Origin: Brachyhypopomus gauderio
Taxonomy: Eukaryota; Chordata; Actinopteri; Gymnotiformes; Hypopomidae
Direction: 5' to 3'
NCBI RefSeq assembly: GCF_052324685.1
Contig: NW_027506876.1
Span: forward strand, 372,001-436,000
Length of the DNA: 64,000 nt
Part shown: positions 1-64,000 of the stretch, piece by piece
How the letters are laid out: every line of letters begins with the position of its first letter
How positions within the stretch are numbered: the first letter of the stretch is position 1
Made by a program: the position numbers and the translations under genes
The notes under the pieces: generated by a model
What the model was told of the DNA's origin: nothing
The model's input: the letters and a program-made list of their open reading frames with translations, nothing else
Databases searched by the model: none

Positions 1-69
1 ATGATGACTTCCATGCTCTGATTGTATGAGGAAACGCCCACGAGAGATGGGCCCATTCGGACAAGCAAG

Positions 70-142
70 GGTTCTGTAGTGTAGTGGTCATCACGTTCGC
101 CTAACGTGCGAAAGGTCCCTGGTTCGATACCAGGCAGAAACA
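70..142 (+). tRNA. tRNA-Val(AAC), variant T2G
   Basis: A 73-nt cloverleaf with anticodon AAC at 103-105 in a 7-nt loop, a 5-bp anticodon stem and a 5-bp T-stem. A34 would normally become inosine and read GUU, GUC and GUA valine codons. T2G mispairs with A71, and the loop carries G37 and T38 where the majority has A37 and C38. No intron and no encoded CCA. Confidence 0.85.
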
Positions 143-314
143 AGCTTCTTGATAGAATTACAAACACACCACTGCTGTTTAGTGGTTTGTTGCCAGTGTA
201 AAGGCTATCAGGGAGCTCTTCCCTTTAGATCCTCAAAGTGAGCTGTCAGTCTCATGTGATCGATACAGGAATGTTTTAAATCGCCACGTACCTTGATAGC
301 AGTACTAATGCAGC
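143..314 (+). other. 3' spacer of the head (reference copy)
   Basis: This 172-bp stretch follows every tRNA. It contains two short hairpins (163-191 and 210-224 in unit coordinates). In X-type units it also has a TTTT at 274-277; in most other units that reads TTCT. I see no ORF, poly-A tract or second RNA gene in it. Confidence 0.7.
274..277 (+). terminator. Distal T4 in X-type and zone A spacers
   Basis: TTTT in atgttttaaa, 132 nt past the tRNA end. It is the first T4 after the tRNA in units of this type. In the majority of other units it is TTCT and the next T4 lies in the tail at unit position 478. A weak ttctt at 146-150, 4 nt past the tRNA, might act as a non-canonical stop. Confidence 0.4.
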
Positions 315-512
315 CGGTTCAATCAAAATGAAACTCAGTGGAAACGTACGTAGTGCTTTGTCATGTTGTCTCCCAACGTAGAAAACTCATGCTACTCGGT
401 TGATTTGTAGACGTTTGTGTTATAAAGGGATCGAATGATGTCAACATTTGGTGTTTGGATGTGAATGTTTTGTCTTAAAGCAGAGTAGACCTACTGCTTA
501 GGCATTGTTGAC
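315..512 (+). repeat. 198-bp tail module (reference copy)
   Basis: The tail begins at cggttcaatc and ends at gttgac before the next head. It contains a TATAAAG at 421-427 and a TTTT at 478-481. A tail followed by another tail ends in agtgttgat, while the last tail of a unit ends in attgttgac, so the end sequence marks what comes next. No gene is recognised in it. Confidence 0.85.
421..427 (+). promoter_or_regulatory. TATAAAG motif in the tail
   Basis: Sits 161 bp upstream of the next tRNA, at a fixed distance because it lies in the last tail of each unit. That is too far for a normal Pol III TATA element. Some tails read tataaacg. May be chance. Confidence 0.25.
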
Positions 513-588
513 ATGATGACTTCCATGCTCTGATTGTATGAGGAAACGCCCACGAGAGATGGGCCCATTCAGACAAGCAAGGTTTCTG

Positions 589-599
589 TAGTGTAGTGG
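589..599 (+). promoter_or_regulatory. A box of a majority tRNA copy
   Basis: Internal Pol III control region, tRNA positions 8-19, reading tagtgtagtgg. It fits the TRGYNNARNNG consensus at every position. It is altered by A9G in three copies and by loss of G19 in the six Z copies. TFIIIC binding is known for this element and is inferred here. Confidence 0.8.
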
Positions 600-632
600 T
601 CATCACGTTCGCCTAACACGCGAAAGGTCCCT

Positions 633-643
633 GGTTCGATACC
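633..643 (+). promoter_or_regulatory. B box of a majority tRNA copy
   Basis: tRNA positions 52-62, reading ggttcgatacc. It differs from GGTTCGANTCC only at position 60. Copies with G52T, G53C, C56T or G57A have a weakened box, so transcription probably differs between copies. Confidence 0.8.
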
Positions 644-674
644 AGGCAGAAACATGCTTCTTGATAGAATTACA

Positions 675-703
675 AACACACCACTGCTGTTTAGTGGTTT
701 GTT
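675..703 (+). other. 3' hairpin 1 (unit positions 163-191)
   Basis: An 11-bp stem with one C-T mismatch and a 7-nt loop gctgttt, 21 nt past the tRNA. It is present after every tRNA. In three Z units an A becomes G, which keeps pairing as G-T. In three other units a G becomes T, which breaks one pair but makes a T4 run. Confidence 0.6.
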
Positions 704-721
704 GCCAGTGTAAAGGCTATC

Positions 722-736
722 GGGGAGCTCTTCCCT
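722..736 (+). other. 3' hairpin 2 (unit positions 210-224)
   Basis: A short stem, aggga or gggga against tccct, around the 5-nt loop gctct. The common A/G difference at its first base keeps A-T or G-T pairing. Small enough to be chance. Confidence 0.4.
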
Positions 737-1093
737 TTAGATCCTCAAAGTGAGCTCTCAGTCTCATGTGATCGATACAGGAATGTTCTAAATCGCCATG
801 TACCTTCATAGCAGTACTAATGCAATCAGTTCAAACAAAATGAAACTCAGTGGAAACGTACGTAGTGCTTTGTCATGTTGTCTCCCAACGTAGAAAACTC
901 ATGCTACTCGGTTGATTTGTAGACGTTTGGTTTATAAAGGGATCGAATGATGTCAACATTTGGTGTTTGGATGTGAATGTTTTGTCTTAAAGCAGAGTAG
1001 ACCTACTGCTTAGCCATTGTTGACATGATGACTTCCATGCTCTGATTGTATGAGGAAACGCCCACGAGAGATGTGCCTATTCAGACAAGCAAG

Positions 1094-1166
1094 GTTTCTG
1101 TAGTGTAGTGGTCATCACGTTCGCCTAACACGCGAAAGGTCCCTGGTTCGATACCAGGCAGGAACA
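1094..1166 (+). tRNA. tRNA-Val(AAC), variant A69G
   Basis: A69G turns the 4:69 acceptor pair into T-G, which is tolerated. The unit is also marked by gcctattcag in the leader and agaagaacaaac after the tRNA. Confidence 0.9.
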
Positions 1167-1605
1167 AGCTTCTTGATAGAAGAACAAACACACCACTGCT
1201 GTTTAGTGGTTTGTTGCCAGTGTAAAGGCTATCAGGGAGCTCTTCCCTTTAGATCCTCAAAGTGAGCTGTCAGTCTCATGTGATCGATACAGGAATGTTT
1301 TAAATCGCCACGTACCTTGATAGCAGTACTAATGCAGCCGGTTCAATCAAAATGAAACTCAGTGGAAACGTACGTAGTGCTTTGTCATGTTGTCTCCCAA
1401 CGTAGAAAACTCATGCTACTCGGTTGATTTGTAGACGTTTGTGTTATAAAGGGATCGAATGATGTCAACATTTGGTGTTTGGATGTGAATGTTTTGTCTT
1501 AAAGCAGAGTAGACCTACTGCTTAGGCATTGTTGACATGATGACTTCCATGCTCTGATTGTATGAGGAAACGCCCACGAGAGATGTGCCCATTCAGACAA
1601 GCAAG

Positions 1606-1678
1606 GTTTCTGTAGTGTAGTGGTCATCACGTTCGCCTAACACGCGAAAGGTCCCTGGTTCGATACCAGGCAGAAACA
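1606..1678 (+). tRNA. tRNA-Val(AAC), majority sequence
   Basis: No change from the majority form. Counterpart of the copy at 3654 in the 2048-bp duplication. Confidence 0.92.
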
Positions 1679-2117
1679 TGCTTCTTGATAGAATTACAAA
1701 CACACCACTGCTGTTTAGTGGTTTGTTGCCAGTGTAAAGGCTATCGGGGAGCTCTTCCCTTTAGATCCTCAAATTGAGCTCTCAGTCTCATGTGATCGAT
1801 ACAGGAATGTTCTAAATCGCCATGTACCTTCATAGCAGTACTAATGCAATCAGTTCAAACAAAATGAAACTCAGTGGAAACGTACGTAGTGCTTTGTCAT
1901 GTTGTCTCCCAACGTAGAAAACTCATGCTACTCGGTTGATTTGTAGACGTTTGGTTTATAAAGGGATCGAATGATGTCAACATTTGGTGTTTGGATGTGA
2001 ATGTTTTGTCTTAAAGCAGAGTAGACCTACTGCTTAGCCATTGTTGACATGATGACTTCCAAGCTCTGATTGTATGAGGAAACACCCACGAGAGATGTGC
2101 CCATTCAGACAAGCAAG

Positions 2118-2190
2118 GTTTCTGTAGTGTAGTGGTCATCACGTTTGCCTAACTTGCGAAAGGTCCCTGGTTCGATACCAGGCAGAAACA
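2118..2190 (+). tRNA. tRNA-Val(AAC), variant C29T/A37T/C38T
   Basis: C29T leaves a T-G wobble in the anticodon stem. T37 is unusual because position 37 is almost always a purine and stabilises codon pairing, so this copy may decode poorly. Confidence 0.86.
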
Positions 2191-2629
2191 TGCTTCTTGA
2201 TAGAATTACAAACACACCACTGCTGTTTAGTGGTTTGTTGCCAGTGTAAAGGCTATCGGGGAGCTCTTCCCTTTAGATCCTCAAAGTGAGCTCTCAGTCT
2301 CATGTGATCGATACAGGAATGTTCTAAATCGCCATGTACCTTCATAGCAGTACTAATGCAATCAGTTCAAACAAAATGAAACTCAGTGGAAACGTACGTA
2401 GTGCTTTGTCATGTTGTCTCCCAACGTAGAAAACTCATGCTACTCGGTTGATTTGTAGACGTTTGTGTTATAAAGGGATCGAATGATGTCAACATTTGGT
2501 GTTTGGATGTGAATGTTTTGTCTTAAAGCAGAGTAGACCTACTGCTTAGGCATTGTTGACATGATGACTTCCATGCTCTGATTGTATGAGGAAACGCCCA
2601 CGAGAGATGGGCCCATTCAGACAAGCAAG

Positions 2630-2702
2630 GTTTCTGTAGTGTAGTGGTCATCACGTTCGCCTAACACGCGAAAGGTCCCTGGTTCGATACCAGGCAGAAA
2701 CA
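2630..2702 (+). tRNA. tRNA-Val(AAC), majority sequence
   Basis: Unchanged. Shares the gggccc leader with the copy at 582, its duplicate partner. Confidence 0.92.
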
Positions 2703-3141
2703 TGCTTCTTGATAGAATTACAAACACACCACTGCTGTTTAGTGGTTTGTTGCCAGTGTAAAGGCTATCGGGGAGCTCTTCCCTTTAGATCCTCAAAGTG
2801 AGCTCTCAGTCTCATGTGATCGATACAGGAATGTTCTAAATCGCCATGTACCTTCATAGCAGTACTAATGCAATCAGTTCAAACAAAATGAAACTCAGTG
2901 GAAACGTACGTAGTGCTTTGTCATGTTGTCTCCCAACGTAGAAAACTCATGCTACTCGGTTGATTTGTAGACGTTTAGTTTATAAAGGGATCGAATGATG
3001 TCAACATTTGGTGTTTGGATGTGAATGTTTTGTCTTAAAGCAGAGTAGACCTACTGCTTAGCCATTGTTGACATGATGACTTCCATGCTCTGATTGTATG
3101 AGGAAACGCCCACGAGAGATGTGCCTATTCAGACAAGCAAG

Positions 3142-3214
3142 GTTTCTGTAGTGTAGTGGTCATCACGTTCGCCTAACACGCGAAAGGTCCCTGGTTCGAT
3201 ACCAGGCAGGAACA
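3142..3214 (+). tRNA. tRNA-Val(AAC), variant A69G
   Basis: Duplicate of the A69G copy at 1094, exactly 2048 bp away, with the same spacer marks. Confidence 0.9.
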
Positions 3215-3653
3215 AGCTTCTTGATAGAAGAACAAACACACCACTGCTGTTTAGTGGTTTGTTGCCAGTGTAAAGGCTATCAGGGAGCTCTTCCCTTTAG
3301 ATCCTCAAAGTGAGCTGTCAGTCTCATGTGATCGATACAGGAATGTTTTAAATCGCCACGTACCTTGATAGCAGTACTAATGCAGCCGGTTCAATCAAAA
3401 TGAAACTCAGTGGAAACGTACGTAGTGCTTTGTCATGTTGTCTCCCAACGTAGAAAACTCATGCTACTCGGTTGATTTGTAGACGTTTGTGTTATAAAGG
3501 GATCGAATGATGTCAACATTTGGTGTTTGGATGTGAATGTTTTGTCTTAAAGCAGAGTAGACCTACTGCTTAGCCATTGTTGACATGATGACTTCCATGC
3601 TCTGATTGTATGAGGAAACGCCCACGAGAGATGTGCCCATTCAGACAATCAAG

Positions 3654-3726
3654 GTTTCTGTAGTGTAGTGGTCATCACGTTCGCCTAACACGAGAAAGGT
3701 CCCTGGTTCGATACCAGGCAGAAACA
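3654..3726 (+). tRNA. tRNA-Val(AAC), variant C40A
   Basis: C40A opens the 30:40 pair in the anticodon stem. The leader also has aatcaagg for aagcaagg. Both are new since the 2048-bp duplication, as the partner at 1606 is unchanged. Confidence 0.85.
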
Positions 3727-4165
3727 TGCTTCTTGATAGAATTACAAACACACCACTGCTGTTTAGTGGTTTGTTGCCAGTGTAAAGGCTATCGGGGAGC
3801 TCTTCCCTTTAGATCCTCAAAGTGAGCTCTCAGTCTCATGTGATCGATACAGGAATGTTCTAAATCGCCATGTACCTTCATAGCAGTACTAATGCAATCA
3901 GTTCAAACAAAATGAAACTCAGTGGAAACGTACATAGTGCTTTGTCATGTTGTCTCCCAACGTAGAAAACTCATGCTACTCGGTTGATTTGTAGACGTTT
4001 GTGTTATAAAGGGATCGAATGATGTCAACATTTGGTGTTTGGATGTGAATGTTTTGTCTTAAAGCAGAGTAGACCTACTGCTTAGCCATTGTTGACATGA
4101 TGACTTCCATGCTCTGATTGTATGAGGAAACACCCACGAGAGATGTGCCCATTCAGACAAGCAAG

Positions 4166-4238
4166 GTTTCTGTAGTGTAGTGGTCATCACGTTTGCCTAA
4201 CTTGCGAAAGGTCCCTGGTTCGATACCAGGCAGAAACA
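4166..4238 (+). tRNA. tRNA-Val(AAC), variant C29T/A37T/C38T
   Basis: Same haplotype as the copy at 2118, with a pyrimidine at position 37. Confidence 0.86.
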
Positions 4239-4677
4239 TGCTTCTTGATAGAATTACAAACACACCACTGCTGTTTAGTGGTTTGTTGCCAGTGTAAAGG
4301 CTATCGGGGAGCTCTTCCCTTTAGATCCTCAAAGTGAGCTCTCAGTCTCATGTGATCGATACAGGAATGTTCTAAATCGCCATGTACCTTCATAGCAGTA
4401 CTAATGCAATCAGTTCAAACAAAATGAAACTCAGTGGAAACGTACGTAGTGCTTTGTCATGTTGTCTCCCAACGTAGAAAACTCATGCTACTCGGTTGAT
4501 TTGTAGACGTTTGTGTTATAAAGGGATCGAATGATGTCAACATTTGGTGTTTGGATGTGAATGTTTTATCTTAAAGCAGAGTAGACCTACTGCTTAGCCA
4601 TTGTTGACATGATGACTTCCATGCTCTGATTGTATGAGGAAACACCCACGAGAGATGTGCCCATTCAGACAAGCAAG

Positions 4678-4750
4678 GTTTCTGTAGTGTAGTGGTCATC
4701 ACGTTTGCCTAACTTGCGAAAGGTCCCTGGTTCGATACCAGGCAGAAACA
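4678..4750 (+). tRNA. tRNA-Val(AAC), variant C29T/A37T/C38T
   Basis: Third copy of this haplotype, next to the one at 4166. Its unit is the first in the window with two tails. Confidence 0.86.
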
Positions 4751-5120
4751 TGCTTCTTGATAGAATTACAAACACACCACTGCTGTTTAGTGGTTTGTTG
4801 CCAGTGTAAAGGCTATCGGGGAGCTCTTCCCTTTAGATCCTCAAAGTGAGCTCTCAGTCTCATGTGATCGATACAGGAATGTTCTAAATCGCCATGTACC
4901 TTGATAGCAGTACTAATGCAATCAGTTCAAACAAAATGAAACTCAGTGGAAACGTACGTAGTGCTTTGTCATGTTGTCTCCCAACGTAGAAAACTCATGC
5001 TACTCGGTTGATTTGTAGACGTTTGTGTTATAAAGGGATCGAATGATGTCAACATTTGGTGTTTGGATGTGAATGTTTTGTTTTAAAGCAGAGTAGACCT
5101 ACTGCTTAGCAAGTGTTGAT

Positions 5121-5318
5121 CGGTTCAATCAAAATGAAACTCAGTGGAAATGTACCTAGTGCTTTGTCATGTTGTCTCCCAACGTAGAAAACTCATGCTA
5201 CTCGGTTGATTTGTAGACGTTTGTGTTATAAAGGTATCGAATGAAGTCAACATTTGGTGTTTGGATGTGAATGTTTTGTCTTAAAGCAGAGTAGACCTAC
5301 CGCTTAGCCATTGTTGAC
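5121..5318 (+). repeat. First extra 198-bp tail in the window
   Basis: This is the second tail of the unit at 4609 and lies exactly 198 bp after the first tail start at 4923. In every two-tail unit the extra tail starts 512 bp after the unit start (513 bp when the T-loop has an extra base). There are 72 extra tails in the window. Confidence 0.9.
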
Positions 5319-5387
5319 ATGATGACTTCCATGCTCTGATTGTATGAGGAAACGCCCACGAGAGATGTGCCCATTCAGACAAGCAAG

Positions 5388-5460
5388 GTTTCTGTAGTGT
5401 AGTGGTCATCACGTTCGCCTAACACGCGAAAGGTCCCTGGTTCGATACCAGGCAGAAACA
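5388..5460 (+). tRNA. tRNA-Val(AAC), majority sequence
   Basis: Unchanged tRNA in a one-tail unit at the start of zone B. Confidence 0.92.
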
Positions 5461-5899
5461 TGCTTCTTGATAGAATTACAAACACACCACTGCTGTTTAG
5501 TGGTTTGTTGCCAGTGTAAAGGCTATCGGGGAGCTCTTCCCTTTAGATCCTCAAAGTGAGCTCTCAGTCTCATGTGATCGATACAAGAATGTTCTAAATC
5601 GCCATGTACCTTGATAGCAGTACTAATGCAATCGGTTCAATCAAAATGAAACTCAGTGGAAACGTACCTAGTGCTTTGTCATGTTGTCTCCCAACGTAGA
5701 AAACTCATGCTACTCGGTTGATTTGTAGACGTTTGTGTTATAAAGGTATCGAATGAAGTCAACATTTGGTGTTTGGATGTGAATGTTTTGTCTTAAAGCA
5801 GAGTAGACCTACCGCTTAGCCATTGTTGACATGATGACTTCCATGCTCTGATTGTATGAGGAAACGCCCACGAGAGTTGGGCCCATTTGGACAAGCAAG

Positions 5900-5972
5900 G
5901 GTTCTGTAGTGTAGTGGTCATCACGTTCGCCTAACGTGCGAAAGGTCCCTGGTTCGATACTAGGCAGAAACA
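5900..5972 (+). tRNA. tRNA-Val(AAC), variant T2G/A37G/C38T/C62T
   Basis: Same haplotype as the first copy of the window, with C62T added, which leaves a G-T pair in the T-stem. The unit leader reads gagttgggcccatttgg. Confidence 0.84.
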
Positions 5973-6411
5973 AGCTTCTTGATAGAATTACAAACACACC
6001 ACTGCTGTTTAGTGGTTTGTTGCCAGTGTAAAGGCTATCAGGGAGCTCTTCCCTTTAGATCCTCAAAGTGAGCTGTCAGTGTCATGTGATCGATACAGGA
6101 ATGTTTTAAATCGCCATGTACCTTGATAGCAGTACTAATGCAGCCGGTTCAATCAAAATGAAACTCAGTGGAAACGTACGTAGTGCTTTGTCATGTTGTC
6201 TCCCAACGTAGAAAACTCATGCTACTCGGTTGATTTGTAGACGTTTGTGTTATAAAGGGATCGAATGATGTCAACATTTGGTGTTTGGATGTGAATGTTT
6301 TGTCTTAAAGCAGAGTAGACCTACTGCTTAGGCATTGTTGACATGATGACTTCCATGCTCTGATTGTATGAGGAAACGCCCACGAGAGATGTGCCCATTC
6401 AGACCAGCAAG

Positions 6412-6484
6412 GTTTCTGTAGTGTAGTGGTCATCACGTTCGCCTAACACGCGAAAGGTCCCTGGTTCGATACCAGGCAGAAACA
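6412..6484 (+). tRNA. tRNA-Val(AAC), majority sequence
   Basis: Unchanged; the leader reads accagc just before the gene. Two-tail unit. Confidence 0.92.
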
Positions 6485-7121
6485 TGCTTCTTGATAGAAT
6501 TACAAACACACCACTGCTGTTTAGTGGTTTGTTGCCAGTGTAAAGGCTATCGGGGAGCTCTTCCCTTTAGATCCTCAAAGTGAGCTGTCAGTCTCATGTG
6601 ATCGATACAGGAATGTTCTAAATCGCCATGTACCTTGATAGCAGTACTAATGCAATCGGTTCAATCAAAATGAAACTCAGTGGAAACGTACCCAGTGCTT
6701 TGTCATGTTGGCTCCCAACGTAGAAAACTCATGCTACTTGGTTGATTTGTAGACGTTTGTGTTATAAAGGGATCGAATGATGTCAACATTTGGTGTTTGG
6801 ATGTGAATGTTTTGTCTTAAAGCAGAGTAGACCTACTGCTTAGCCAGTGTTGATCGGTTCAATCAAAATGAAACTCAGTGGAAACGTACCTAGTGCTTTG
6901 TCATGTTGTCTCCCAACGTAGAAAACTCATGCTACTCGGTTGATTTGTAGACGTTTGTGTTATAAAGGTATCGAATGAAGTCAACATTTGGTGTTTGGAT
7001 GTGAATGTTTTGTCTTAAAGCAGAGTAGACCTACCGCTTAGCCATTGTTGACATGATGACTTCCATGCTCTGATTGTATGAGGAAACGCCCACGAGAGAT
7101 GTGCCCATTCAGACAAGCAAG

Positions 7122-7194
7122 GTTTCTGTAGTGTAGTGGTCATCACGTTCGCCTAACACGCGAAAGGTCCCTGGTTCGATACCAGGCAGAAACA
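7122..7194 (+). tRNA. tRNA-Val(AAC), majority sequence
   Basis: Unchanged. First gene of the 1222-bp block repeated at 11429. Confidence 0.92.
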
Positions 7195-7831
7195 TGCTTC
7201 TTGATAGAATTACAAACACACCACTGCTGTTTAGTGGTTTGTTGCCAGTGTAAAGGCTATCAGGGAGCTCTTCCCTTTAGATCCTCAAAGTGAGCTGTCA
7301 GTCTCATGTGATCGATACAGGAATGTTCTAAATCGCCATGTACCTTGATAGCAGTACTAATGCAGCCGGTTCAATCAAAATGAAACTCAGTGGAAACTTA
7401 CCTGGTGCTTTGTCATGTTGTCTCCCAACGTAGAAAACTCATGCTACTCGGTTGATTTGTAGACGTTTGTGTTATAAAGGGATCGAATGATGTCAACATT
7501 TGGTGTTTGGATGTGAATGTTTTGTTTTAAAGCAGAGTAGACCTACTGCTTAGCCAGTGTTGATCGGTTCAATCAAAATGAAACTCAGTGGAAACGTACC
7601 TAGTGCTTTGTCATGTTGTCTCCCAACGTAGAAAACTCATGCTACTTGGTTGATTTGTAGACGTTTGTGTTATAAACGTATCGAATGAAGTCAACATTTG
7701 GTGTTTGGATGTGAATGTTTTGTCTTAAAGCATAGTAGACCTACCGCTTAGCCATTGTTGACATGATGACTTCCATGCTCTGATTGTATGAGGAAACGCC
7801 CATGAGAGATGTGCCCATTCAGACAAGCAAG

Positions 7832-7904
7832 GTTTCTGTAGTGTAGTGGTCATCACGTTCGCCTAACACGCGAAAGGTCCCTGCTTCGATACCAGGCAGA
7901 AACA
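7832..7904 (+). tRNA. tRNA-Val(AAC), variant G53C
   Basis: G53C breaks the 53:61 pair that closes the T-loop and changes the B box from GGTTC to GCTTC. Both folding and Pol III transcription should suffer. Confidence 0.82.
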
Positions 7905-8343
7905 TGCTTCTTAATAGAATTACAAACACACCACTGCTGTTTAGTGGTTTGTTGCCAGTGTAAAGGCTATCGGGGAGCTCTTCCCTTTAGATCCTCAAAG
8001 TGAGCTCTCAGTCTCATGTGATCGATACAGGAATGTTCTAAATCGCCATGTACCTTGATAGCAGTACTAATGCAATCGGTTCAATCAAAATGAAACTCAG
8101 TGGAAACGTACCTAGTGCTTTGTCATGTTGTCTCCCAACGTAGAAAACTCATGCTACTTGGTTGATTTGTAGACGTTTGTGTTATAAAGGGATCGAATGA
8201 TGTCAACATTTGGTGTTTGGATGTGAATGTTTTGTCTTAAAGCAGAGTAGACCTACCGCTTAGCCATTGTTGACATGATGACTTCCATGCTCTGATTGTA
8301 TGAGGAAACGCCCACGAGAGATGTGCCCATTCAGACAAGCAAG

Positions 8344-12719: not shown

Positions 12720-12792
12720 GTTTCTGTAGTGTAGTGGTCATCACGTTCGCCTCACACGCGAAAGGTCCCTGGTTCGATACCAGGCAGAAACA
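12720..12792 (+). tRNA. tRNA-Val with CAC anticodon (A34C)
   Basis: The only copy with anticodon CAC, from A34C; every other base matches the majority. It still keeps A35, C36 and A73 for valyl-tRNA synthetase and would read GUG instead of GUU/GUC/GUA. All stems are intact. The unit start reads atcatgac. Confidence 0.9.
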
Positions 12793-15361: not shown

Positions 15362-15434
15362 GTTTCTGTAGTGTAGTGGTCATCACGTTTGCCTAACATG
15401 CGAAAGGTTCCTGGTTCGATACCAGGCAGAAACA
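15362..15434 (+). tRNA. tRNA-Val(AAC), variant C29T/C38T/C48T
   Basis: Third copy of this haplotype, now in a triple-tail unit, with the proximal T4 kept. Confidence 0.86.
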
Positions 15435-15476
15435 TGCTTCTTGATAGAATTACAAACACACCACTGCTGTTTAGTG

Positions 15477-15480
15477 TTTT
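15477..15480 (+). terminator. Proximal T4 after tRNA at 15362
   Basis: Third member of the haplotype with a T4 run in hairpin 1. Confidence 0.5.
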
Positions 15481-16269
15481 GTTGCCAGTGTAAAGGCTAT
15501 CGGGGAGCTCTTCCCTTTAGATCCTCAAAGTGAGCTCTCAGTCTCATGTGATCGATACAGGAATGTTTTAAATCGCCATGTACCTTGATAGCAGTACTAA
15601 TGCAATCGGTTCAATCAAAATGAAACTCAGTGGAAACTTACCTGGTGCTTTGTCATGTTGTCTCCCAACGTAGAAAACTCATGCTACTCGGTTGATTTGT
15701 AGACGTTTGTGTTATAAAGGGATCGAATGATGTCAACATTTGGTGTTTGGATGTGAATGTTTTGTCTTAAAGCAGAGTAGACCTACTGCTTAGCAAGTGT
15801 TGATCGGTTCAATCAAAATGAAACTCAGTGGAAATGTACCTAGTGCTTTGTCATGTTGTCTCCCAACGTGGAAAACTCATGCTACTTGGTTGATTTGTAG
15901 ATGTTTGTGTTATAAAGGGATCGAATGATGTCAACATTTGGTGTTTGGATGTGAATGTTTTGTCTTAAAGCAGAGTAGACCTACTGCTTAGCAAGTGTTG
16001 ATCGGTTCAATCAAAATGAAACTCAGTGGAAATGTACCTAGTGCTTTGTCATGTTGTCTCCCAACGTAGAAAACTCATGCTACTCGGTTGATTTGTAGAC
16101 GTTTGTGTTATAAAGGTATCGAATGAAGTCAACATTTGGTGTTTAGATGTGAATGTTTTGTCTTAAAGCAGAGTAGACCTACCGCTTAGCCATTGTTGAC
16201 ATGATGACTTCCATGCTCTGATTGTATGAGGAAACGCCCACGAGAGATGTGCCCATTCAGACAAACAAG

Positions 16270-27431: not shown

Positions 27432-27504
27432 GTTTCTGTAGTGTAGTGGTCATCACGTTCGCCTAAAACGCGAAAGGTCCCTGGTTCGATACCAGGCAGA
27501 AACA
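27432..27504 (+). tRNA. tRNA-Val body with AAA anticodon (C36A)
   Basis: C36A changes the anticodon from AAC to AAA, which would pair with UUU (Phe). Everything else is the majority valine sequence with full stems. Loss of C36 removes a main valyl-tRNA synthetase determinant, while A35, A36 and A73 are part of the known Phe set. It may be uncharged, mischarged or silent. Confidence 0.88.
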
Positions 27505-30783: not shown

Positions 30784-30856
30784 GTTTCTGTAGTGTAGTG
30801 GTCATCACGTTCGCCTAAAACGCGAAAGGTCCCTGGTTCGATACCAGGCAGAAACA
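30784..30856 (+). tRNA. tRNA-Val body with AAA anticodon (C36A)
   Basis: Second AAA copy, 3352 bp after the first, spread by the block duplication. Identical tRNA sequence to 27432. Confidence 0.88.
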
Positions 30857-47509: not shown

Positions 47510-47582
47510 GTTTCTGTAGTGTAGTGGTCATCACGTTCGCCTAAAACGCGAAAGGTCCCTGGTTCGATACCAGGCAGAAACA
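47510..47582 (+). tRNA. tRNA-Val body with AAA anticodon (C36A)
   Basis: Third AAA copy, with the same tRNA sequence as 27432 and 30784 but followed by a Y-type spacer, so the exchange occurred just downstream of the gene. Confidence 0.88.
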
Positions 47583-50663: not shown

Positions 50664-50737
50664 GTTTCTGTAGTGTAGTGTTCATCACGTTCGCCTAACA
50701 CGCGAAAGGTCCCTGGTTCGAAAACCAGGCAGAAACA
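50664..50737 (+). tRNA. tRNA-Val(AAC), Z type (G19T, 8-nt T-loop), probably defective
   Basis: First Z copy, 74 nt. G19T removes the partner of C56, and the T-loop reads ttcgaaaa, one base over the normal seven. Both hit the D-loop/T-loop contact that forms the elbow. The added base also displaces the last C of the B box. First unit of zone D. Confidence 0.78.
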
Positions 50738-55042: not shown

Positions 55043-55115
55043 GTTTCTGTAGTGTAGTGGTCATCACGTTCGCCTAACACGCGAAAGGTCCCTGGTTCGA
55101 TACCAGGCAGAAACA
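55043..55115 (+). tRNA. tRNA-Val(AAC), majority sequence
   Basis: Unchanged W copy, 1223 bp after 53820. Confidence 0.92.
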
Positions 55116-55752
55116 TGCTTCTTGATAGAATTACAAACACACCACTGCTGTTTAGTGGTTTGTTGCCAGTGTAAAGGCTATCGGGGAGCTCTTCCCTTTA
55201 GATCCTCAAAGTGAGCTCTCAGTCTCATGTGATCGATACAGGAATGTTCTAAATCGCCATGTACCTTGATAGCAGTACTAATGCAATCGGTTCAATCAAA
55301 ATGAAACTCAGTGGAAACGTACCTAGTGCTTTGTCATGTTGTCTCCCAACGTAGAAAACTCATGCTACTTGGTTGATTTCTAGACGTTTGTGTTATAAAG
55401 GGATCGAATGATGTCAACATTTGGTGTTTGGATGTGAATGTTTTGTCTTAAAGCAGAGTAGACCTACTGCTTAGCCAGTGTTGATCGGTTCAATCAAAAT
55501 GAAACTCAGTGGAAACGTACCTAGTGCTTTGTCATGTTGTCTCCCAATGTAGAAAACTCATGCTACTCGGTTGATTTGTAGACGTTTGTGTTATAAAGGT
55601 ATCGAATGAAGTCAACATTTGGTGTTTGAATGTGAATGTTTTGTCTTAAAGCAGAGTAGACCTACCGCTTAGCCATTGTTGACATGATGACTTCCATGCT
55701 CTGATTGTATGAGGAAACGCCCACGAGAGATGTGCCCATTCAGACACGCAAG

Positions 55753-55826
55753 GTTTCTGTAGTGTAGTGTTCATCACGTTCGCCTAACACGCGAAAGGTC
55801 CCTGGTTCGAAAACCAGGCAGAAACA
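55753..55826 (+). tRNA. tRNA-Val(AAC), Z type, probably defective
   Basis: 1223 bp after 54530 and identical in the tRNA. Confidence 0.78.
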
Positions 55827-56265
55827 TGCTTCTTGATAGAATTACAAACACGCCACTGCTGTTTAGTGGTTTGTTGCCATTGTAAAGGCTATCGGGGAGC
55901 TCTTCCCTTTAGATCCTCAAAGTGAGCTCTCAGTCTCATGTGATCGATACAGGAATGTTCTAAATCGCCATGTACCTTGATAGCAGTACTAATGCAATCG
56001 GTTCAATCAAAATGAAACTCAGTGGAAACGTACCTAGTGCTTTGTCATGTTGTCTCCCAACGTAGAAAACTCATGCTACTCGGTTGATTTGTAGACGTTT
56101 GTGTTATAAAGGGATCGAATGATGTCAACATTTGGTGTTTGGATGTGAATGTTTTGTCTTAAAGCAGAGTAGACCTACTGCTTAGCCATTGTTGACATGA
56201 TGACTTCCATGCTCTGATTGTATGAGGAAACGCCCACGAGAGATGTGCCCATTCAGACACGCAAG

Positions 56266-56338
56266 GTTTCTGTAGTGTAGTGGTCATCACGTTCGCCTAA
56301 CACACGAAAGGTCCCTGGTTCGATACCAGGCAGAAACA
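56266..56338 (+). tRNA. tRNA-Val(AAC), variant G39A
   Basis: A39 faces C31 and opens the pair closing the anticodon loop. Confidence 0.85.
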
Positions 56339-56975
56339 TGCTTCTTGATAGAATTACAAACACACCACTGCTGTTTAGTGGTTTGTTGCCATTGTAAAGG
56401 CTATCGGGGAGCTCTTCCCTTTAGATCCTCAAAGTGAGCTCTCAGTCTCATGTGATCGATACAGGAATGTTCTAAATCGCCATGTACCTTGATAGCAGTA
56501 CTAATGCAATCGGTTCAATCAAAATGAAACTCAGTGGAAACGTACCTAGTGCTTTGTCATGTTGTCTCCCAACGTAGAAAACTCATGCTACTCGGTTGAT
56601 TTGTAGACGTTTGTGTTATAAAGGGATCGAATGATGTCAACATTTGGTGTTTGGATGTGAATGTTTTGTCTTAAAGCAGAGTAGACCTACTGCTTAGCCA
56701 GTGTTGATCGGTTCAATCAAAATGAAACTCAGTGGAAACGTACCTAGTGCTTTGTCATGTTGTCTCCCAACGTAGAAAACTCATGCTACTCGGTTGATTT
56801 GTAGACGTTTGTGTTATAAAGGGATCGAATGATGTCAACATTTGGTGTTTGGATGTGAATGTTTTGTCTTAAAGCAGAGTAGACCTACTGCTTAGCCATT
56901 GTTGACATGATGACTTCCATGCTCTGATTGTATGAGGAAACGCCCACGAGAGATGTGCCCATTCAGACACGCAAG

Positions 56976-57048
56976 GTTTCTGTAGTGTAGTGGTCATCAC
57001 GTTCGCCTAACACACGAAAGGTCCCTGGTTCGATACCAGGCAGAAACA
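56976..57048 (+). tRNA. tRNA-Val(AAC), variant G39A
   Basis: Repeats the G39A of the previous unit, so the change was copied with it; here with one tail. Confidence 0.85.
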
Positions 57049-57487
57049 TGCTTCTTGATAGAATTACAAACACACCACTGCTGTTTAGTGGTTTGTTGCC
57101 ATTGTAAAGGCTATCGGGGAGCTCTTCCCTTTAGATCCTCAAAGTGAGCTCTCAGTCTCATGTGATCGATACAGGAATGTTCTAAATCGCCATGTACCTT
57201 GATAGCAGTACTAATGCAATCGGTTCAATCAAAATGAAACTCAGTGGAAACGTACCTAGTGCTTTGTCATGTTGTCTCCCAACGTAGAAAACTCATGCTA
57301 CTCGGTTGATTTGTAGACGTTTGTGTTATAAAGGGATCGAATGATGTCAACATTTGGTGTTTGGATGTGAATGTTTTGTCTTAAAGCAGAGTAGACCTAC
57401 TGCTTAGCCATTGTTGACATGATGACTTCCATGCTCTGATTGTATGAGGAAACGCCCACGAGAGATGTGCCCATTCAGACACGCAAG

Positions 57488-57560
57488 GTTTCTGTAGTGT
57501 AGTGGTCATCACGTTCGCCTAACACGCGAAAGGTCCCTGGTTCGATACCAGGCAGAAACA
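57488..57560 (+). tRNA. tRNA-Val(AAC), majority sequence
   Basis: Unchanged; V-like spacer with caataaaaatg but a single tail. Confidence 0.92.
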
Positions 57561-57999
57561 TGCTTCTTGATAGAATTACAAACACACCACTGCTGTTTAG
57601 TGGTTTGTTGCCAGTGTAAAGGCTATCGGGGAGCTCTTCCCTTTAGATCCTCAAAGTGAGCTCTCAGTCTCATGTGATCGATACAGGAATGTTCTAAATC
57701 GCCATGTACCTTGATAGCAGTACTAATGCAATCGGTTCAATAAAAATGAAACTCAGTGGAAACGTACCTAGTGCTTTGTCATGTTGTCTCCCAACGTAGA
57801 AAACTCATGCTACTCGGTTGATTTGTAGACGTTTGTGTTATAAAGGGATCGAATGATGTCAACATTTGGTGTTTGGATGTGAATGTTTTGTCTTAAAGCA
57901 GAGTAGACCTACTGCTTAGCCATTGTTGACATGATGACTTCCATGCTCTGATTGTATGAGGAAACGCCCACGAGAGATGTGCCCATTCAGACACGCAAG

Positions 58000-58073
58000 G
58001 TTTCTGTAGTGTAGTGTTCATCACGTTCGCCTAACACGCGAAAGGTCCCTGGTTCGAAAACCAGGCAGAAACA
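58000..58073 (+). tRNA. tRNA-Val(AAC), Z type, probably defective
   Basis: The only Z copy in a two-tail unit (711 bp), outside a W+Z block. Confidence 0.78.
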
Positions 58074-58710
58074 TGCTTCTTGATAGAATTACAAACACAC
58101 CACTGCTGTTTAGTGGTTTGTTGCCATTGTAAAGGCTATCGGGGAGCTCTTCCCTTTAGATCCTCAAAGTGAGCTCTCAGTCTCATGTGATCGATACAGG
58201 AATGTTCTAAATCGCCATGTACCTTGATAGCAGTACTAATGCAATCGGTTCAATCAAAATGAAACTCAGTGGAAACGTACCTAGTGCTTTGTCATGTTGT
58301 CTCCCAACGTAGAAAACTCATGCTACTCGGTTGATTTGTAGACGTTTGTGTTATAAAGGGATCGAATGATGTCAACATTTGGTGTTTGGATGTGAATGTT
58401 TTGTCTTAAAGCAGAGTAGACCTACTGCTTAGCCAGTGTTGATCGGTTCAATCAAAATGAAACTCAGTGGAAACGTACCTAGTGCTTTGTCATGTTGTCT
58501 CCCAACGTAGAAAACTCATGCTACTCGGTTGATTTGTAGACGTTTGTGTTATAAAGGGATCGAATGATGTCAACATTTGGTGTTTGGATGTGAATGTTTT
58601 GTCTTAAAGCAGAGTAGACCTACTGCTTAGCCATTGTTGACATGATGACTTCCATGCTCTGATTGTATGAGGAAACGCCCACGAGAGATGTGCCCATTCA
58701 GACACGCAAG

Positions 58711-58783
58711 GTTTCTGTAGTGTAGTGGTCATCACGTTCGCCTAACACGCGAAAGGTCCCTGGTTCGATACCAGGCAGAAACA
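58711..58783 (+). tRNA. tRNA-Val(AAC), majority sequence
   Basis: Unchanged; W unit that has lost its second tail. Confidence 0.92.
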
Positions 58784-59222
58784 TGCTTCTTGATAGAATT
58801 ACAAACACACCACTGCTGTTTAGTGGTTTGTTGCCAGTGTAAAGGCTATCGGGGAGCTCTTCCCTTTAGATCCTCAAAGTGAGCTCTCAGTCTCATGTGA
58901 TCGATACAGGAATGTTCTAAATCGCCATGTACCTTGATAGCAGTACTAATGCAATCGGTTCAATCAAAATGAAACTCAGTGGAAACGTACCTAGTGCTTT
59001 GTCATGTTGTCTCCCAACGTAGAAAACTCATGCTACTTGGTTGATTTCTAGACGTTTGTGTTATAAAGGGATCGAATGATGTCAACATTTGGTGTTTGGA
59101 TGTGAATGTTTTGTCTTAAAGCAGAGTAGACCTACTGCTTAGCCATTGTTGACATGATGACTTCCATGCTCTGATTGTATGAGGAAACGCCCACGAGAGA
59201 TGTGCCCATTCAGACACGCAAG

Positions 59223-59295
59223 GTTTCTGTAGTGTAGTGGTCATCACGTTCGCCTAACACGCGAAAGGTCCCTGGTTCGATACCAGGCAGAAACA
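59223..59295 (+). tRNA. tRNA-Val(AAC), majority sequence
   Basis: Unchanged; V unit with ttgtcaagttg in the second tail. Confidence 0.92.
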
Positions 59296-59932
59296 TGCTT
59301 CTTGATAGAATTACAAACACACCACTGCTGTTTAGTGGTTTGTTGCCATTGTAAAGGCTATCGGGGAGCTCTTCCCTTTAGATCCTCAAAGTGAGCTCTC
59401 AGTCTCATGTGATCGATACAGGAATGTTCTAAATCGCCATGTACCTTGATAGCAGTACTAATGCAATCGGTTCAATAAAAATGAAACTCAGTGGAAACGT
59501 ACCTAGTGCTTTGTCATGTTGTCTCCCAACGTAGAAAACTCATGCTACTCGGTTGATTTGTAGACGTTTGTGTTATAAAGGGATCGAATGATGTCAACAT
59601 TTGGTGTTTGGATGTGAATGTTTTGTCTTAAAGCAGAGTAGACCTACTGCTTAGCCAGTGTTGATCGGTTCAATCAAAATGAAACTCAGTGGAAACTTAC
59701 CTGGTGTTTTGTCAAGTTGTCTCCCAACGTAGAAAACTCATGCTACTCGGTTGATTTGTAGACGTTTGTGTTATAAAGGGATCGAATGATGTCAACATTT
59801 GGTGTTTGGATGTGAATGTTTTGTCTTAAAGCAGAGTAGACCTACTGCTTAGCCATTGTTGACATGATGACTTCCATGCTCTGATTGTATGAGGAAACGC
59901 CCACGAGAGATGTGCCCATTCAGACACGCAAG

Positions 59933-60005
59933 GTTTCTGTAGTGTAGTGGTCATCACGTTCGCCTAACACGCGAAAGGTCCCTGGTTCGATACCAGGCAG
60001 AAACA
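59933..60005 (+). tRNA. tRNA-Val(AAC), majority sequence
   Basis: Unchanged; V unit, second tail ends gcagagaag. Confidence 0.92.
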
Positions 60006-60642
60006 TGCTTCTTGATAGAATTACAAACACACCACTGCTGTTTAGTGGTTTGTTGCCATTGTAAAGGCTATCGGGGAGCTCTTCCCTTTAGATCCTCAAA
60101 GTGAGCTCTCAGTCTCATGTGATCGATACAGGAATGTTCTAAATCGCCATGTACCTTGATAGCAGTACTAATGCAATCGGTTCAATAAAAATGAAACTCA
60201 GTGGAAACGTACCTAGTGCTTTGTCATGTTGTCTCCCAACGTAGAAAACTCATGCTACTCGGTTGATTTGTAGACGTTTGTGTTATAAAGGGATCGAATG
60301 ATGTCAACATTTGGTGTTTGGATGTGAATGTTTTGTCTTAAAGCAGAGTAGACCTACTGCTTAGCCAGTGTTGATCGGTTCAATCAAAATGAAACTCAGT
60401 GGAAACTTACCTGGTGTTTTGTCATGTTGTCTCCCAACGTAGAAAACTCATGCTACTCGGTTGATTTGTAGACGTTTGTGTTATAAAGGGATCGAATGAT
60501 GTCAACATTTGGTGTTTGGATGTGAATGTTTTGTCTTAAAGCAGAGAAGACCTACTGCTTAGCCATTGTTGACATGATGACTTCCATGCTCTGATTGTAT
60601 GAGGAAACGCCCACGAGAGATGTGCCCATTCAGACACGCAAG

Positions 60643-60715
60643 GTTTCTGTAGTGTAGTGGTCATCACGTTCGCCTAACACGTGAAAGGTCCCTGGTTCGA
60701 TACCAGGCAGAAACA
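60643..60715 (+). tRNA. tRNA-Val(AAC), variant C40T
   Basis: G30-T40 wobble keeps the anticodon stem. It arose apart from the A9G/C25T/C40T haplotype of zone B. Confidence 0.9.
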
Positions 60716-61352
60716 TGCTTCTTGATAGAATTACAAACACACCACTGCTGTTTAGTGGTTTGTTGCCAGTGTAAAGGCTATCGGGGAGCTCTTCCCTTTA
60801 GATCCTCAAAGTGAGCTCTCAGTCTCATGTGATCGATACAGGAATGTTCTAAATCGCCATGTACCTTGATAGCAGTACTAATGCAATCGGTTCAATAAAA
60901 ATGAAACTCAGTGGAAACGTACCTAGTGCTTTGTCATGTTGTCTCCCAACGTAGAAAACTCATGCTACTCGGTTGATTTGTAGACGTTTGTGTTATAAAG
61001 GGATCGAATGATGTCAACATTTGGTGTTTGGATGTGAATGTTTTGTCTTAAAGCAGAGTAGACCTACTGCTTAGCCAGTGTTGATCGGTTCAATCAAAAT
61101 GAAACTCAGTGGAAACTTACCTGGTGTTTTGTCATGTTGTCTCCCAACGTAGAAAACTCATGCTACTCGGTTGATTTGTAGACGTTTGTGTTATAAAGGG
61201 ATCGAATGATGTCAACATTTGGTGTTTGGATGTGAATGTTTTGTCTTAAAGCAGAGTAGACCTACTGCTTAGCCATTGTTGACATGATGACTTCCATGCT
61301 CTGATTGTATGAGGAAACGCCCACGAGAGATGTGCCCATTCAGACACGCAAG

Positions 61353-61425
61353 GTTTCTGTAGTGTAGTGGTCATCACGTTCGCCTAACACGCGAAAGGTC
61401 CCTGGTTCGATACCAGGCAGAAACA
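61353..61425 (+). tRNA. tRNA-Val(AAC), majority sequence
   Basis: Unchanged W copy of the distal 1223-bp block. Confidence 0.92.
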
Positions 61426-62062
61426 TGCTTCTTGATAGAATTACAAACACACCACTGCTGTTTAGTGGTTTGTTGCCAGTGTAAAGGCTATCGGGGAGCT
61501 CTTCCCTTTAGATCCTCAAAGTGAGCTCTCAGTCTCATGTGATCGATACAGGAATGTTCTAAATCGCCATGTACCTTGATAGCAGTACTAATGCAATCGG
61601 TTCAATCAAAATGAAACTCAGTGGAAACGTACCTAGTGCTTTGTCATGTTGTCTCCCAACGTAGAAAACTCATGCTACTTGGTTGATTTCTAGACGTTTG
61701 TGTTATAAAGGGATCGAATGATGTCAACATTTGGTGTTTGGATGTGAATGTTTTGTCTTAAAGCAGAGTAGACCTACTGCTTAGCCAGTGTTGATCGGTT
61801 CAATCAAAATGAAACTCAGTGGAAACGTACCTAGTGCTTTGTCATGTTGTCTCCCAACGTAGAAAACTCATGCTACTCGGTTGATTTGTAGACGTTTGTG
61901 TTATAAAGGTATCGAATGAAGTCAACATTTGGTGTTTGAATGTGAATGTTTTGTCTTAAAGCAGAGTAGACCTACCGCTTAGCCATTGTTGACATGATGA
62001 CTTCCATGCTCTGATTGTATGAGGAAACGCCCATGAGAGATGTGCCCATTCAGACACGCAAG

Positions 62063-62136
62063 GTTTCTGTAGTGTAGTGTTCATCACGTTCGCCTAACAC
62101 GCGAAAGGTCCCTGGTTCGAAAACCAGGCAGAAACA
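62063..62136 (+). tRNA. tRNA-Val(AAC), Z type, probably defective
   Basis: Sixth Z copy; the leader reads cccatgagag. Confidence 0.78.
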
Positions 62137-62575
62137 TGCTTCTTGATAGAATTACAAACACACCACTGCTGTTTAGTGGTTTGTTGCCATTGTAAAGGCT
62201 ATCGGGGAGCTCTTCCCTTTAGATCCTCAAAGTGAGCTCTCAGTCTCATGTGATCGATACAGGAATGTTCTAAATCGCCATGTACCTTGATAGCAGTACT
62301 AATGCAATCGGTTCAATCAAAATGAAACTCAGTGGAAACGTACCTAGTGCTTTGTCATGTTGTCTCCCAACGTAGAAAACTCATGCTACTCGGTTGATTT
62401 GTAGACGTTTGTGTTATAAAGGGATCGAATGATGTCAACATTTGGTGTTTGGATGTGAATGTTTTGTCCTAAAGCAGAGTAGACCTACTGCTTAGCCATT
62501 GTTGACATGATGACTTCCATGCTCTGATTGTATGAGGAAACGCCCACGAGAGATGTGCCCATTCAGACACGCAAG

Positions 62576-62648
62576 GTTTCTGTAGTGTAGTGGTCATCAC
62601 GTTCGCCTAACACGCGAAAGGTCCCTGGTTCGATACCAGGCAGAAACA
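62576..62648 (+). tRNA. tRNA-Val(AAC), majority sequence
   Basis: Unchanged; V unit. The preceding tail reads ttttgtcctaaag. Confidence 0.92.
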
Positions 62649-63285
62649 TGCTTCTTGATAGAATTACAAACACACCACTGCTGTTTAGTGGTTTGTTGCC
62701 ATTGTAAAGGCTATCGGGGAGCTCTTCCCTTTAGATCCTCAAAGTGAGCTCTCAGTCTCATGTGATCGATACAGGAATGTTCTAAATCGCCATGTACCTT
62801 GATAGCAGTACTAATGCAATCGGTTCAATAAAAATGAAACTCAGTGGAAACGTACCTAGTGCTTTGTCATGTTGTCTCCCAACGTAGAAAACTCATGCTA
62901 CTCGGTTGATTTGTAGACGTTTGTGTTATAAAGGGATCGAATGATGTCAACATTTGGTGTTTGGATGTGAATGTTTTGTCTTAAAGCAGAGTAGACCTAC
63001 TGCTTAGCCAGTGTTGATCGGTTCAATCAAAATGAAACTCAGTGGAAACTTACCTGGTGTTTTGTCAAGTTGTCTCCCAACGTAGAAAACTCATGCTACT
63101 CGGTTGATTTGTAGACGTTTGTGTTATAAAGGGATCGAATGATGTCAACATTTGGTGTTTGGATGTGAATGTTTTGTCTTAAAGCAGAGTAGACCTACTG
63201 CTTAGCCATTGTTGACATGATGACTTCCATGCTCTGATTGTATGAGGAAATGCCCACGAGAGATGTGCCCATTCAGACACACAAG

Positions 63286-63358
63286 GTTTCTGTAGTGTAG
63301 TGGTCATCACGTTCGCCTAACACGCGAAAGGTCCCTGGTTCGATACCAGGCAGAAACA
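63286..63358 (+). tRNA. tRNA-Val(AAC), majority sequence
   Basis: Unchanged; last complete copy. The leader reads acacacaagg. Confidence 0.92.
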
Positions 63359-63995
63359 TGCTTCTTGATAGAATTACAAACACACCACTGCTGTTTAGTG
63401 GTTTGTTGCCATTGTAAAGGCTATCGGGGAGCTCTTCCCTTTAGATCCTCAAAGTGAGCTCTCAGTCTCATGTGATCGATACAGGAATGTTCTAAATCGC
63501 CATGTACCTTGATAGCAGTACTAATGCAATCGGTTCAATAAAAATGAAACTCAGTGGAAACGTACCTAGTGCTTTGTCATGTTGTCTCCCAACGTAGAAA
63601 ACTCATGCTACTCGGTTGATTTGTAGACGTTTGTGTTATAAAGGGATCGAATGATGTCAACATTTGGTGTTTGGATGTGAATGTTTTGTCTTAAAGCAGA
63701 GTAGACCTACTGCTTAGCCAGTGTTGATCGGTTCAATCAAAATGAAACTCAGTGGAAACTTACCTGGTGTTTTGTCATGTTGTCTCCCAACGTAGAAAAC
63801 TCATGCTACTCGGTTGATTTGTAGACGTTTGTGTTATAAAGGGATCGAATGATGTCAACATTTGGTGTTTGGATGTGAATGTTTTGTCTTAAAGCAGAGT
63901 AGACCTACTGCTTAGCCATTGTTGACATGATGACTTCCATGCTCTGATTGTATGAGGAAACGCCCACGAGAGATGTGCCCATTCAGACACGCAAG

Positions 63996-64000
63996 GTTTC
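63996..64000 (+). tRNA. tRNA-Val, first 5 bases, cut by the window end
   Basis: gtttc after a normal zone D leader. Shows that the array continues. Confidence 0.8.

Follow-up and report, generated by a model that had tools for sequence, protein, structure and literature searches.

Introduction

The tDNA repeat unit of Xenopus carries several genes, unlike that of the array described here, which carries one. For the oocyte-specific tandem tRNA genes of Xenopus, the points of likeness are the tandem arrangement, cytosine modification and RNA polymerase III (Pol III), as far as the available text of a commentary goes (PMC11500080). In zebrafish, the accessible parts of two studies describe tRNA genes in large repetitive regions on the long arm of chromosome 4, scattered genes of other isodecoders, and maternal isodecoders (PMC11417395, PMC11075544). 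Repetitive tRNA regions and scattered genes of another isodecoder are present here too; the differences are that one isotype appears to fill ~0.96 Mb, with a tRNA-Ile array adjoining, Thr and Lys runs on other contigs and ordinary gene frames past the right edge. A 2010 survey reports a large share of stickleback and zebrafish tDNA in clusters, mostly parallel in zebrafish, and recognizes homogeneous clusters as a class; the organization is of the same kind, and no array of the present size is seen in the available portion of that survey (PMC2888827). The human tRNA variable-number tandem repeat at 1q23.3, according to extracts of its description, is similar as a tRNA-bearing tandem repeat that varies in copy number, but its CTCF-binding units measure 7.3 kb (PMC4041453) while those studied here span 512–908 bp. 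Entamoeba arrays likewise consist of tandem tRNA gene units, which in the text available hold up to five tRNA genes and microsatellite-like spacers (PMC2652664), in contrast to the one gene and modular 198-bp spacer found here.

Here we analyse a window of 64,000 bp, the whole stretch of DNA examined (C32:372001-436000 of the Brachyhypopomus gauderio assembly). We infer that it sits inside a single megabase-scale head-to-tail tRNA-Val array on a nuclear chromosome, and we put at about one half the probability that this array is an oocyte and early-embryo supply of tRNA-Val in which unequal exchange maintains the similarity of the copies.

Results

ARAGORN identified 97 tRNA genes in the window (1..64000), all on the + strand, in agreement with the number and single orientation given in the initial annotation. 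Of their anticodons, 93 are Val-AAC, one is Val-CAC (12720..12792, + strand) and three are AAA (27432..27504, 30784-30856 and 47510-47582, + strand). The Rfam cloverleaf model RF00005 scored 87 sites above its gathering score, so that about ten ARAGORN calls fall below it. The 96 start-to-start spacings are 710 bp (62), 512 bp (24), 513 bp (5), 908 bp (4) and 711 bp (1). Once a one-base insertion in six copies was set aside, every complete unit of the window could be written as a 73-bp tRNA, a 170-bp 3′ flank, one, two or three 198-bp blocks and a 71-bp 5′ flank. These are the modular spacers noted earlier. A representative unit with one block (1094..1605, + strand) contains the tRNA-Val(AAC) body with its internal A and B boxes (1094..1166; ARAGORN), the 3′ flank (1167..1336), which by copy alignment has no TTTT in its consensus, a TTCTT that is a candidate non-canonical Pol III terminator (1170..1174), the spacer block (1337..1534) and the 5′ flank of the next tRNA (1535..1605). 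In the 710-bp unit at 4678..5387 (+ strand) two blocks occupy 4921-5316, and the 908-bp unit at 15362..16269 (+ strand) holds three. Each unit bears one tRNA gene, not the several different genes of an Entamoeba-type unit.

Many copies are altered, as had been noticed: the consensus 73-mer occurs in 24 of 97, and 27 distinct 73-mers were counted, with six insertion copies that read out of register tallied as one type. These six carry an extra base in the T-loop together with a G to T change in the D-loop and start at 50664 (50664..50737, + strand), 52597, 54530, 55753, 58000 and 62063. The ORF list of the window contains no complete frame of at least 120 aa. Plasmid and phage collections gave no match to the window, and the exact tRNA pattern occurred 0 times in viral contigs. 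SnoRNA-like and groES-like Rfam matches were below gathering score and were dismissed as chance. A nucleosome-phasing role for the 198-bp block was dropped because neither 512 nor 710 is divisible by 198.

The array extends past the window. Samples and probes place it from base 1 to ~526.8 kb on contig C32 and from base 1 to ~429.6 kb on contig C96. The two contig ends join in register within one tRNA, from which C32 and C96 are taken to be one array of ~0.96 Mb, and the array spacer motif has 1,627 matches genome-wide. On this basis the array would comprise about 1,600 near-identical tRNA-Val genes. Long, head-to-tail and homogenized, it behaves in these respects like satellite DNA: the same 1-kb sequence is found again at distances of several units, most commonly 3,748 bp, and variation in the tRNA is not below that of the spacer (see below), which upholds the satellite-like behaviour suggested initially.

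For copy-level analyses the C32 sample included the window and eight loci that a search picked out as resembling a unit of the window; coverage of 200-372 kb comes solely from such loci. BLAST returned 377 copies, of which 373 were aligned, the rest lying at stretch ends. In these 373 copies the anticodons are AAC (215), CAC (104), TAC (45), GAC (4), AAA (4) and TGT (1), arranged in zones. The earlier description of one isoacceptor is therefore nearly right for the window and wrong for the array, where CAC and TAC copies occur in bulk. We do not claim recurrent selection on the wobble base, which in a tree built without the wobble column changes between A, C and T 8 times, against 2 to 25 changes at ten other variable sites. 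To our knowledge GAC is absent from eukaryotic Val sets; its rarity here fits this, but a founder effect could explain it.

The tRNA is no less variable than its surroundings. Non-CpG pi in the C32 array is 0.032 for the tRNA against 0.037 (5′) and 0.029 (3′), which counts against a supply function; in the window only, with CpG included, the values are 0.033 for the tRNA and 0.022 and 0.020 for the spacer. Near-invariant non-CpG sites make up 31/63 of the tRNA and 137/231 of the spacer (p = 0.15). Mutations in stems preserved pairing in 10/43 cases compared with 20/120 possible (p = 0.23), no better than random, and many array copies have broken stems. We make no claim that the 5′ half of the tRNA is specially conserved: among 289 windows of 26 sites it is 19th from the lowest, and spacer windows fall just as low. 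With three copies of more than 12 differences excluded, 149 of 370 C32 copies passed a strict test of 20 stem pairs, A- and B-box invariants and a Val anticodon, which counts for a supply function; the invariants are intact in 346 (A box) and 326 (B box) of the 370. Among sampled C96 copies 11/12 have no broken pair, but they were picked with a pattern that tolerates 3 changes close to the 5′ end, and several lie next to one another. In both tRNA and spacer, CpG sites vary 3-5 times as much as the remaining sites (from 4, 10 and 6 sites), and this decay inside the tRNA suggests that the array is methylated in the germline. One of the recurrent changes turns the B-box C into T, in 12/373 copies.

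Spacers were aligned for 363 C32 copies. A run of at least four T close downstream, the usual mark of a Pol III gene, lies within 20 nt in 13/363 array copies versus 5/5 dispersed Val genes (Fisher p = 1.6e-7), which counts against a supply function. Going downstream, a TTTT is first reached at 325 nt in 210 copies, at 323 nt in 61 copies and at 131 nt in 49 copies. TTCTT occurs within 12 nt in 336/363 copies, in most of them 3 nt past the tRNA, and is also found in the outlying relatives described below. Selection on TTCTT inside the array is unsupported, as it ranks 93/165 among 5-mers of the 3′ flank.

The genome search found five dispersed canonical Val genes, two of them 603 bp apart, with a pattern that misses Val genes with other bodies. 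Thus, as in maternal or oocyte-type arrays, dispersed genes of the same isotype (5) exist separately from a high-copy tandem context (1,627 motif matches), and the array isodecoder is distinct from the dispersed one. In particular, the array tRNA differs from the dispersed gene on contig C4 at 7 positions; 4 of these form two fully compensated stem pairs and 3, including the wobble base, lie outside stems. The compensated differences indicate that the array tRNA diverged under structural selection. The bases peculiar to the array are T6-A67, C20 and T51-A63 of the 73-mer. An unlinked relative on contig C36 matches the array at 72/73 tRNA bases and at 53/64 aligned downstream bases (Fisher p = 0.0014), and a diverged right-edge copy matches at 69/73 tRNA, 44/67 downstream and 31/70 upstream positions; both count for a supply function. 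Constraint is thus seen on the tRNA of the outlying relatives and not inside the array, and by this comparison the relatives appear to reveal past constraint on the tRNA.

Discussion

In the reading we favour, the array would be a high-copy, maternal-type source of tRNA-Val for oocytes and early embryos, and the handful of dispersed canonical genes would supply cells of later stages or of the soma. The A and B boxes inside each copy would direct its transcription by Pol III. The copies would stay alike through unequal exchange of single units or groups of units, and the 198-bp blocks would be spacer won and lost through the same exchange. With ~1,600 copies, selection on each would be weak, so that many would decay, CpG sites fastest, and recurrent homogenization would restore intact versions. 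In the available text of the zebrafish work Val-CAC, TAC and AAC are handled as one cluster, a point of likeness to the present array (PMC11417395, PMC11075544). Against this reading, the AAC share of that zebrafish cluster goes up late and not at early stages (PMC11417395), while our window is nearly all AAC.

The main rival, which we regard as a serious though somewhat less probable explanation, is that satellite DNA captured a tRNA-Val gene and today has little or no expression, the cloverleaf persisting only through fast homogenization in an array young relative to mutation. Equal diversity in tRNA and spacer, structure-blind stem mutations, shared CpG decay and the lack of a nearby T4 run in most copies all fit it, as do the final copies at the right edge, which are far more diverged than interior ones, though the C96 edge is abrupt. 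It explains less well why the C36 relative kept its tRNA while the flank diverged and why the stem changes that set the array apart from the C4 gene come as compensated pairs. The setting also bears on it. A tRNA-Ile array adjoins the tRNA-Val array, and Thr and Lys tRNA runs occur on other contigs (C7, C71), which favours a cause specific to tRNA genes over a satellite arisen by chance. These runs, and the similar zebrafish and stickleback organization in the accessible text of PMC2888827, lend no support to a view of the locus as an isolated oddity.

The remaining explanations are improbable. TFIIIC bound to ~1,600 B boxes could insulate, cluster or condense the locus, with tRNA output incidental; the intact box invariants and missing near terminators agree with this, but the whole tRNA is no better kept than the spacer and the B-box C itself recurrently mutates, and we give this role little credence. 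Apart from B boxes, which every tRNA gene carries, the data offer nothing in favour of the chromatin or insulator role raised initially. About as improbable, the product could be long Pol III read-through transcripts, ending at the TTTT at +131 or ~+325, or tRNA fragments instead of mature tRNA. The distant first TTTT would accommodate this; the TTCTT shared by most copies and by the C36 and edge relatives speaks against it, and Orioli 2011, listed in PMC5356446, is said to report non-canonical termination by human Pol III. Multiplication of one or a few units by the assembler, which the initial annotation named as its refutation, is the least likely of all. The contigs do break inside the array, so that its copy number is provisional, but 79/96 whole window units are distinct, none is identical to its neighbour, and along 0.5 Mb there are zones that differ in anticodon and in unit length as well as insertions of reverse-transcriptase elements.

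A more speculative extension, which we consider doubtful, is that one homogenizing locus produces every valine isoacceptor. Wobble changes within one array body would have multiplied to form CAC, TAC and AAC zones, copy number and zone sizes would set the germline tRNA-Val pool, and units ending at TTCTT in place of a T-run would be of use chiefly in cells with permissive Pol III termination, as perhaps in the oocyte.

If the array is the egg source of tRNA-Val, very large arrays can set up the split between maternal array-borne and later scattered tRNAs one isotype at a time, and within a single array an anticodon can change identity and the new form can spread. The array-specific bases provide a tag for tRNA sequencing. 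When programs count the tRNA genes of such genomes, many decaying copies are included.

Ordinary gene frames (SRCR, UNC5-like) lie ~38 and 78 kb beyond the right edge of the array and speak neither for nor against a boundary role.

Structure and extent of the tRNA-Val array

Across the 64 kb of the window ARAGORN called 97 tRNA genes, every one on the + strand, of which 93 are Val-AAC, one is Val-CAC and three carry the anticodon AAA; the Rfam tRNA model found 87 places above its gathering score. The tRNAs start 512, 710 or 908 bp apart, with six exceptions that are off by one base, and each unit consists of a 73-bp tRNA followed by a 170-bp 3' flank, then the 198-bp block in one to three copies, and a 71-bp 5' flank. 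No complete ORF of at least 120 amino acids is listed. The description given in the initial annotation, a megasatellite of 97 tRNA-Val genes, is borne out for the window. Expansion by the assembler had been named there as what would undo the claim of a satellite array. The claim survived, as 79 of the 96 complete units are distinct and none is the same as the adjacent unit; multiplication of the array by assembly is unlikely.

To define the extent of the array we searched the genome (796.5 Mb, 840 contigs) and sampled C32, the contig that carries the window at 372001–436000, in twenty 10-kb pieces plus smaller ones. Array sequence was present in 15 of 15 samples from base 1 to 530 kb and in none of five from 560 kb onward, with the right edge at ~526.8 kb. 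Interruptions start at 194,455 (2.7 kb), 468,962 (of which the start was fetched) and 480,556 (5.1 kb), and those at 194,455 and 480,556 contain reverse-transcriptase frames. The LINE-like reverse-transcriptase frames within the array lie in opposite orientations (L019:5143-7047, - strand, and L022:1868-4834, + strand, in fetched contig pieces). About 4 kb beyond the right edge is a transposase frame (L029:723-1952, - strand; Pfam DDE_Tnp_1_7), which we take to be PiggyBac-like, and reading frames matching an SRCR domain and the netrin receptor UNC5B lie ~38 and 78 kb beyond it. These two matches mark the genome as that of an animal and, taken with the LINE-like frames and the overall character of the sequence, suggest a teleost.

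A 43-base spacer motif, allowing up to three mismatches, matched the genome 802 times forward and 825 times in reverse, while its reversed control gave no match; among the matches listed, the forward ones are on C32 and the reverse ones on C96, a second contig. C96 starts within the array on the - strand, all ten probes up to 429.5 kb are array, and the array ends there at ~429.56 kb. Reverse-complemented, C96 stops at tRNA base 33 and C32 starts at base 34, and the two joined give a TAC copy. We infer that both contigs hold a single array of ~956 kb, split by the assembly at this putative join.

Anticodons and exchange between units

All three valine anticodons are present in the array. The 373 copies examined on C32 comprise 215 AAC, 104 CAC, 45 TAC, four GAC, four AAA and one TGT, and 12 copies on C96 comprise five CAC, five TAC, one AAC and one TCC. 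C32 is zoned, with TAC and CAC in the first 50 kb, chiefly CAC at 60–130 kb and chiefly AAC from 180 kb onward (200–372 kb being sampled thinly). Unit length is zoned as well, mostly 510–512 bp at the left and dominated by 710 bp in the window. A perfect TAC anticodon arm has 42 forward occurrences genome-wide, of which 41 are on C32 and the other is on C36, and 140 reverse ones. On a tree of unit cores built without the wobble column, the wobble base changed eight times, compared with between 2 and 25 changes at each of ten further variable sites, so a few wobble events, amplified by exchange, suffice. Window units at lag 1 have on average 6.7 core differences and those at lag 50 have 8.3, and the commonest offset of repeated 1-kb stretches is 3,748 bp, which fits unequal exchange spanning several units.

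Terminators and constraint on the tRNA

A canonical 5'-half Val pattern, with one mismatch allowed, occurs at six places in the genome, namely one array copy on C96 and five dispersed genes (four AAC, one CAC), two of which lie 603 bp apart on C16. A run of four or more T within 20 nt downstream is found in 5/5 dispersed genes compared to 13/363 array copies (Fisher p = 1.6e-7). The thirteen, all CAC (3) or TAC (10), gained T4/T5 runs via changes in the word TTCTT (L009–L011, C32 0.5–49.5 kb). In the other copies (n = 363 overall) the first TTTT is chiefly at 325 nt (210), 323 nt (61) or 131 nt (49). TTCTT lies within 12 nt downstream in 336/363 copies and is common to the array and two outlying relatives, one on C36 and the copy at the right edge; within the array it is not conserved above other spacer words. 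Human Pol III is described as requiring four T, with read-through common (PMC5356446).

At non-CpG sites, diversity among array copies is 0.032 for the tRNA against 0.037 for the upstream and 0.029 for the downstream flank, and CpG sites (10, 4 and 6, respectively) show 0.12–0.14 in all three regions; in the window alone, CpG included, the tRNA (0.033) exceeds its flanks (0.022 and 0.020). Pairing is kept in 10 of 43 distinct stem mutations, near the random 20/120. Strictly intact copies, with 20 stem pairs, A/B-box invariants and a Val anticodon, number 149/370 on C32 and 39/98 in the window (the 98th straddles its right end). No stem pair is broken in 11 of 12 sampled C96 copies versus 170/370 on C32 (p = 0.002), but the C96 picks favour near-consensus 5' ends and some are adjacent.

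The outlying relatives differ from this pattern. The lone C36 relative (C36:800478-800628, L083) has an array-type body matching at 72/73 tRNA positions and a TAC anticodon, with only 53/64 downstream, and carries TTTT ~34 nt downstream where the array reads TTTA; it may show the unit before amplification. The degenerate final copy at the right edge retains 69/73 tRNA identity against 44/67 and 31/70 in its flanks, also with a T-run at the TTTA position. Compared with a dispersed gene on C4, the array body differs at seven sites, four in two compensated pairs and three outside stems. Because the relatives keep the tRNA over its flanks, the C4 pairs are compensated and the array tRNA shows no visible constraint, selection on the gene as a tRNA preceded amplification or acted outside the array, the T-run terminator appears to have been lost from array units, and the array copies are now decaying, each under little check.

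Possible role of the array

By analogy, we favour, at about even odds (~0.5), a putative supply of tRNA-Val for the oocyte or early embryo, under weak selection per copy. Zebrafish isodecoders present in eggs and early embryos are reported to be encoded in highly repetitive regions, and those of late stages by scattered genes (PMC11417395), a layout resembling the one high-copy array isodecoder and few dispersed canonical genes seen here. Most zebrafish tRNA genes are placed in chromosome 4 heterochromatin alongside maternal 5S genes by PMC11075544, which leaves open whether they are maternal, and a commentary describes tandem tRNA genes specific to the Xenopus oocyte as bearing an activating cytosine mark (PMC11500080). 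Counting against early supply, the zebrafish Val-AAC share is reported to rise late, not early (PMC11417395). That the array is satellite DNA instead is a somewhat doubtful reading that stays serious, favoured by the terminators missing from array copies and by the lack of visible constraint within the array. Within the open-access library and terms searched, we found no publication that describes a Val array of one isotype reaching megabase size.

Other tandem tRNA runs

At its C96 edge the Val array switches abruptly, within a 198-bp block, to tandem tRNA-Ile(TAT) units, detected by 12/12 probes at 430–442 kb, 0/5 at 443–449.5 kb, 4/4 at 450–525 kb (one partial) and 0/3 at 550–600 kb. The Ile copies carry introns (L072, C96:429401-433400; C96 probes L055–L066 and L045–L048). 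In 2 kb read, ARAGORN-called copies alternate with degenerate ones, and the two called copies have TTTT ~4 nt downstream. When the genome was scanned with the tRNA model, the best 63 of 74,024 first-look candidates were scored, and of these 63, 31 fall on C7 and 23 on C71; 30 of the 31 scored on C7 lie at 24.16–24.29 Mb, many spaced near 1,219 bp. The C7 copy read (n = 1, L079) is Thr(TGT) and the C71 copies read (n = 2, L078 and L082) are Lys(TTT). Together with the Ile array, these runs indicate that tandem tRNA runs in this genome extend beyond valine. The two Lys copies, like the Val array, lack TTTT in the 48 nt downstream.
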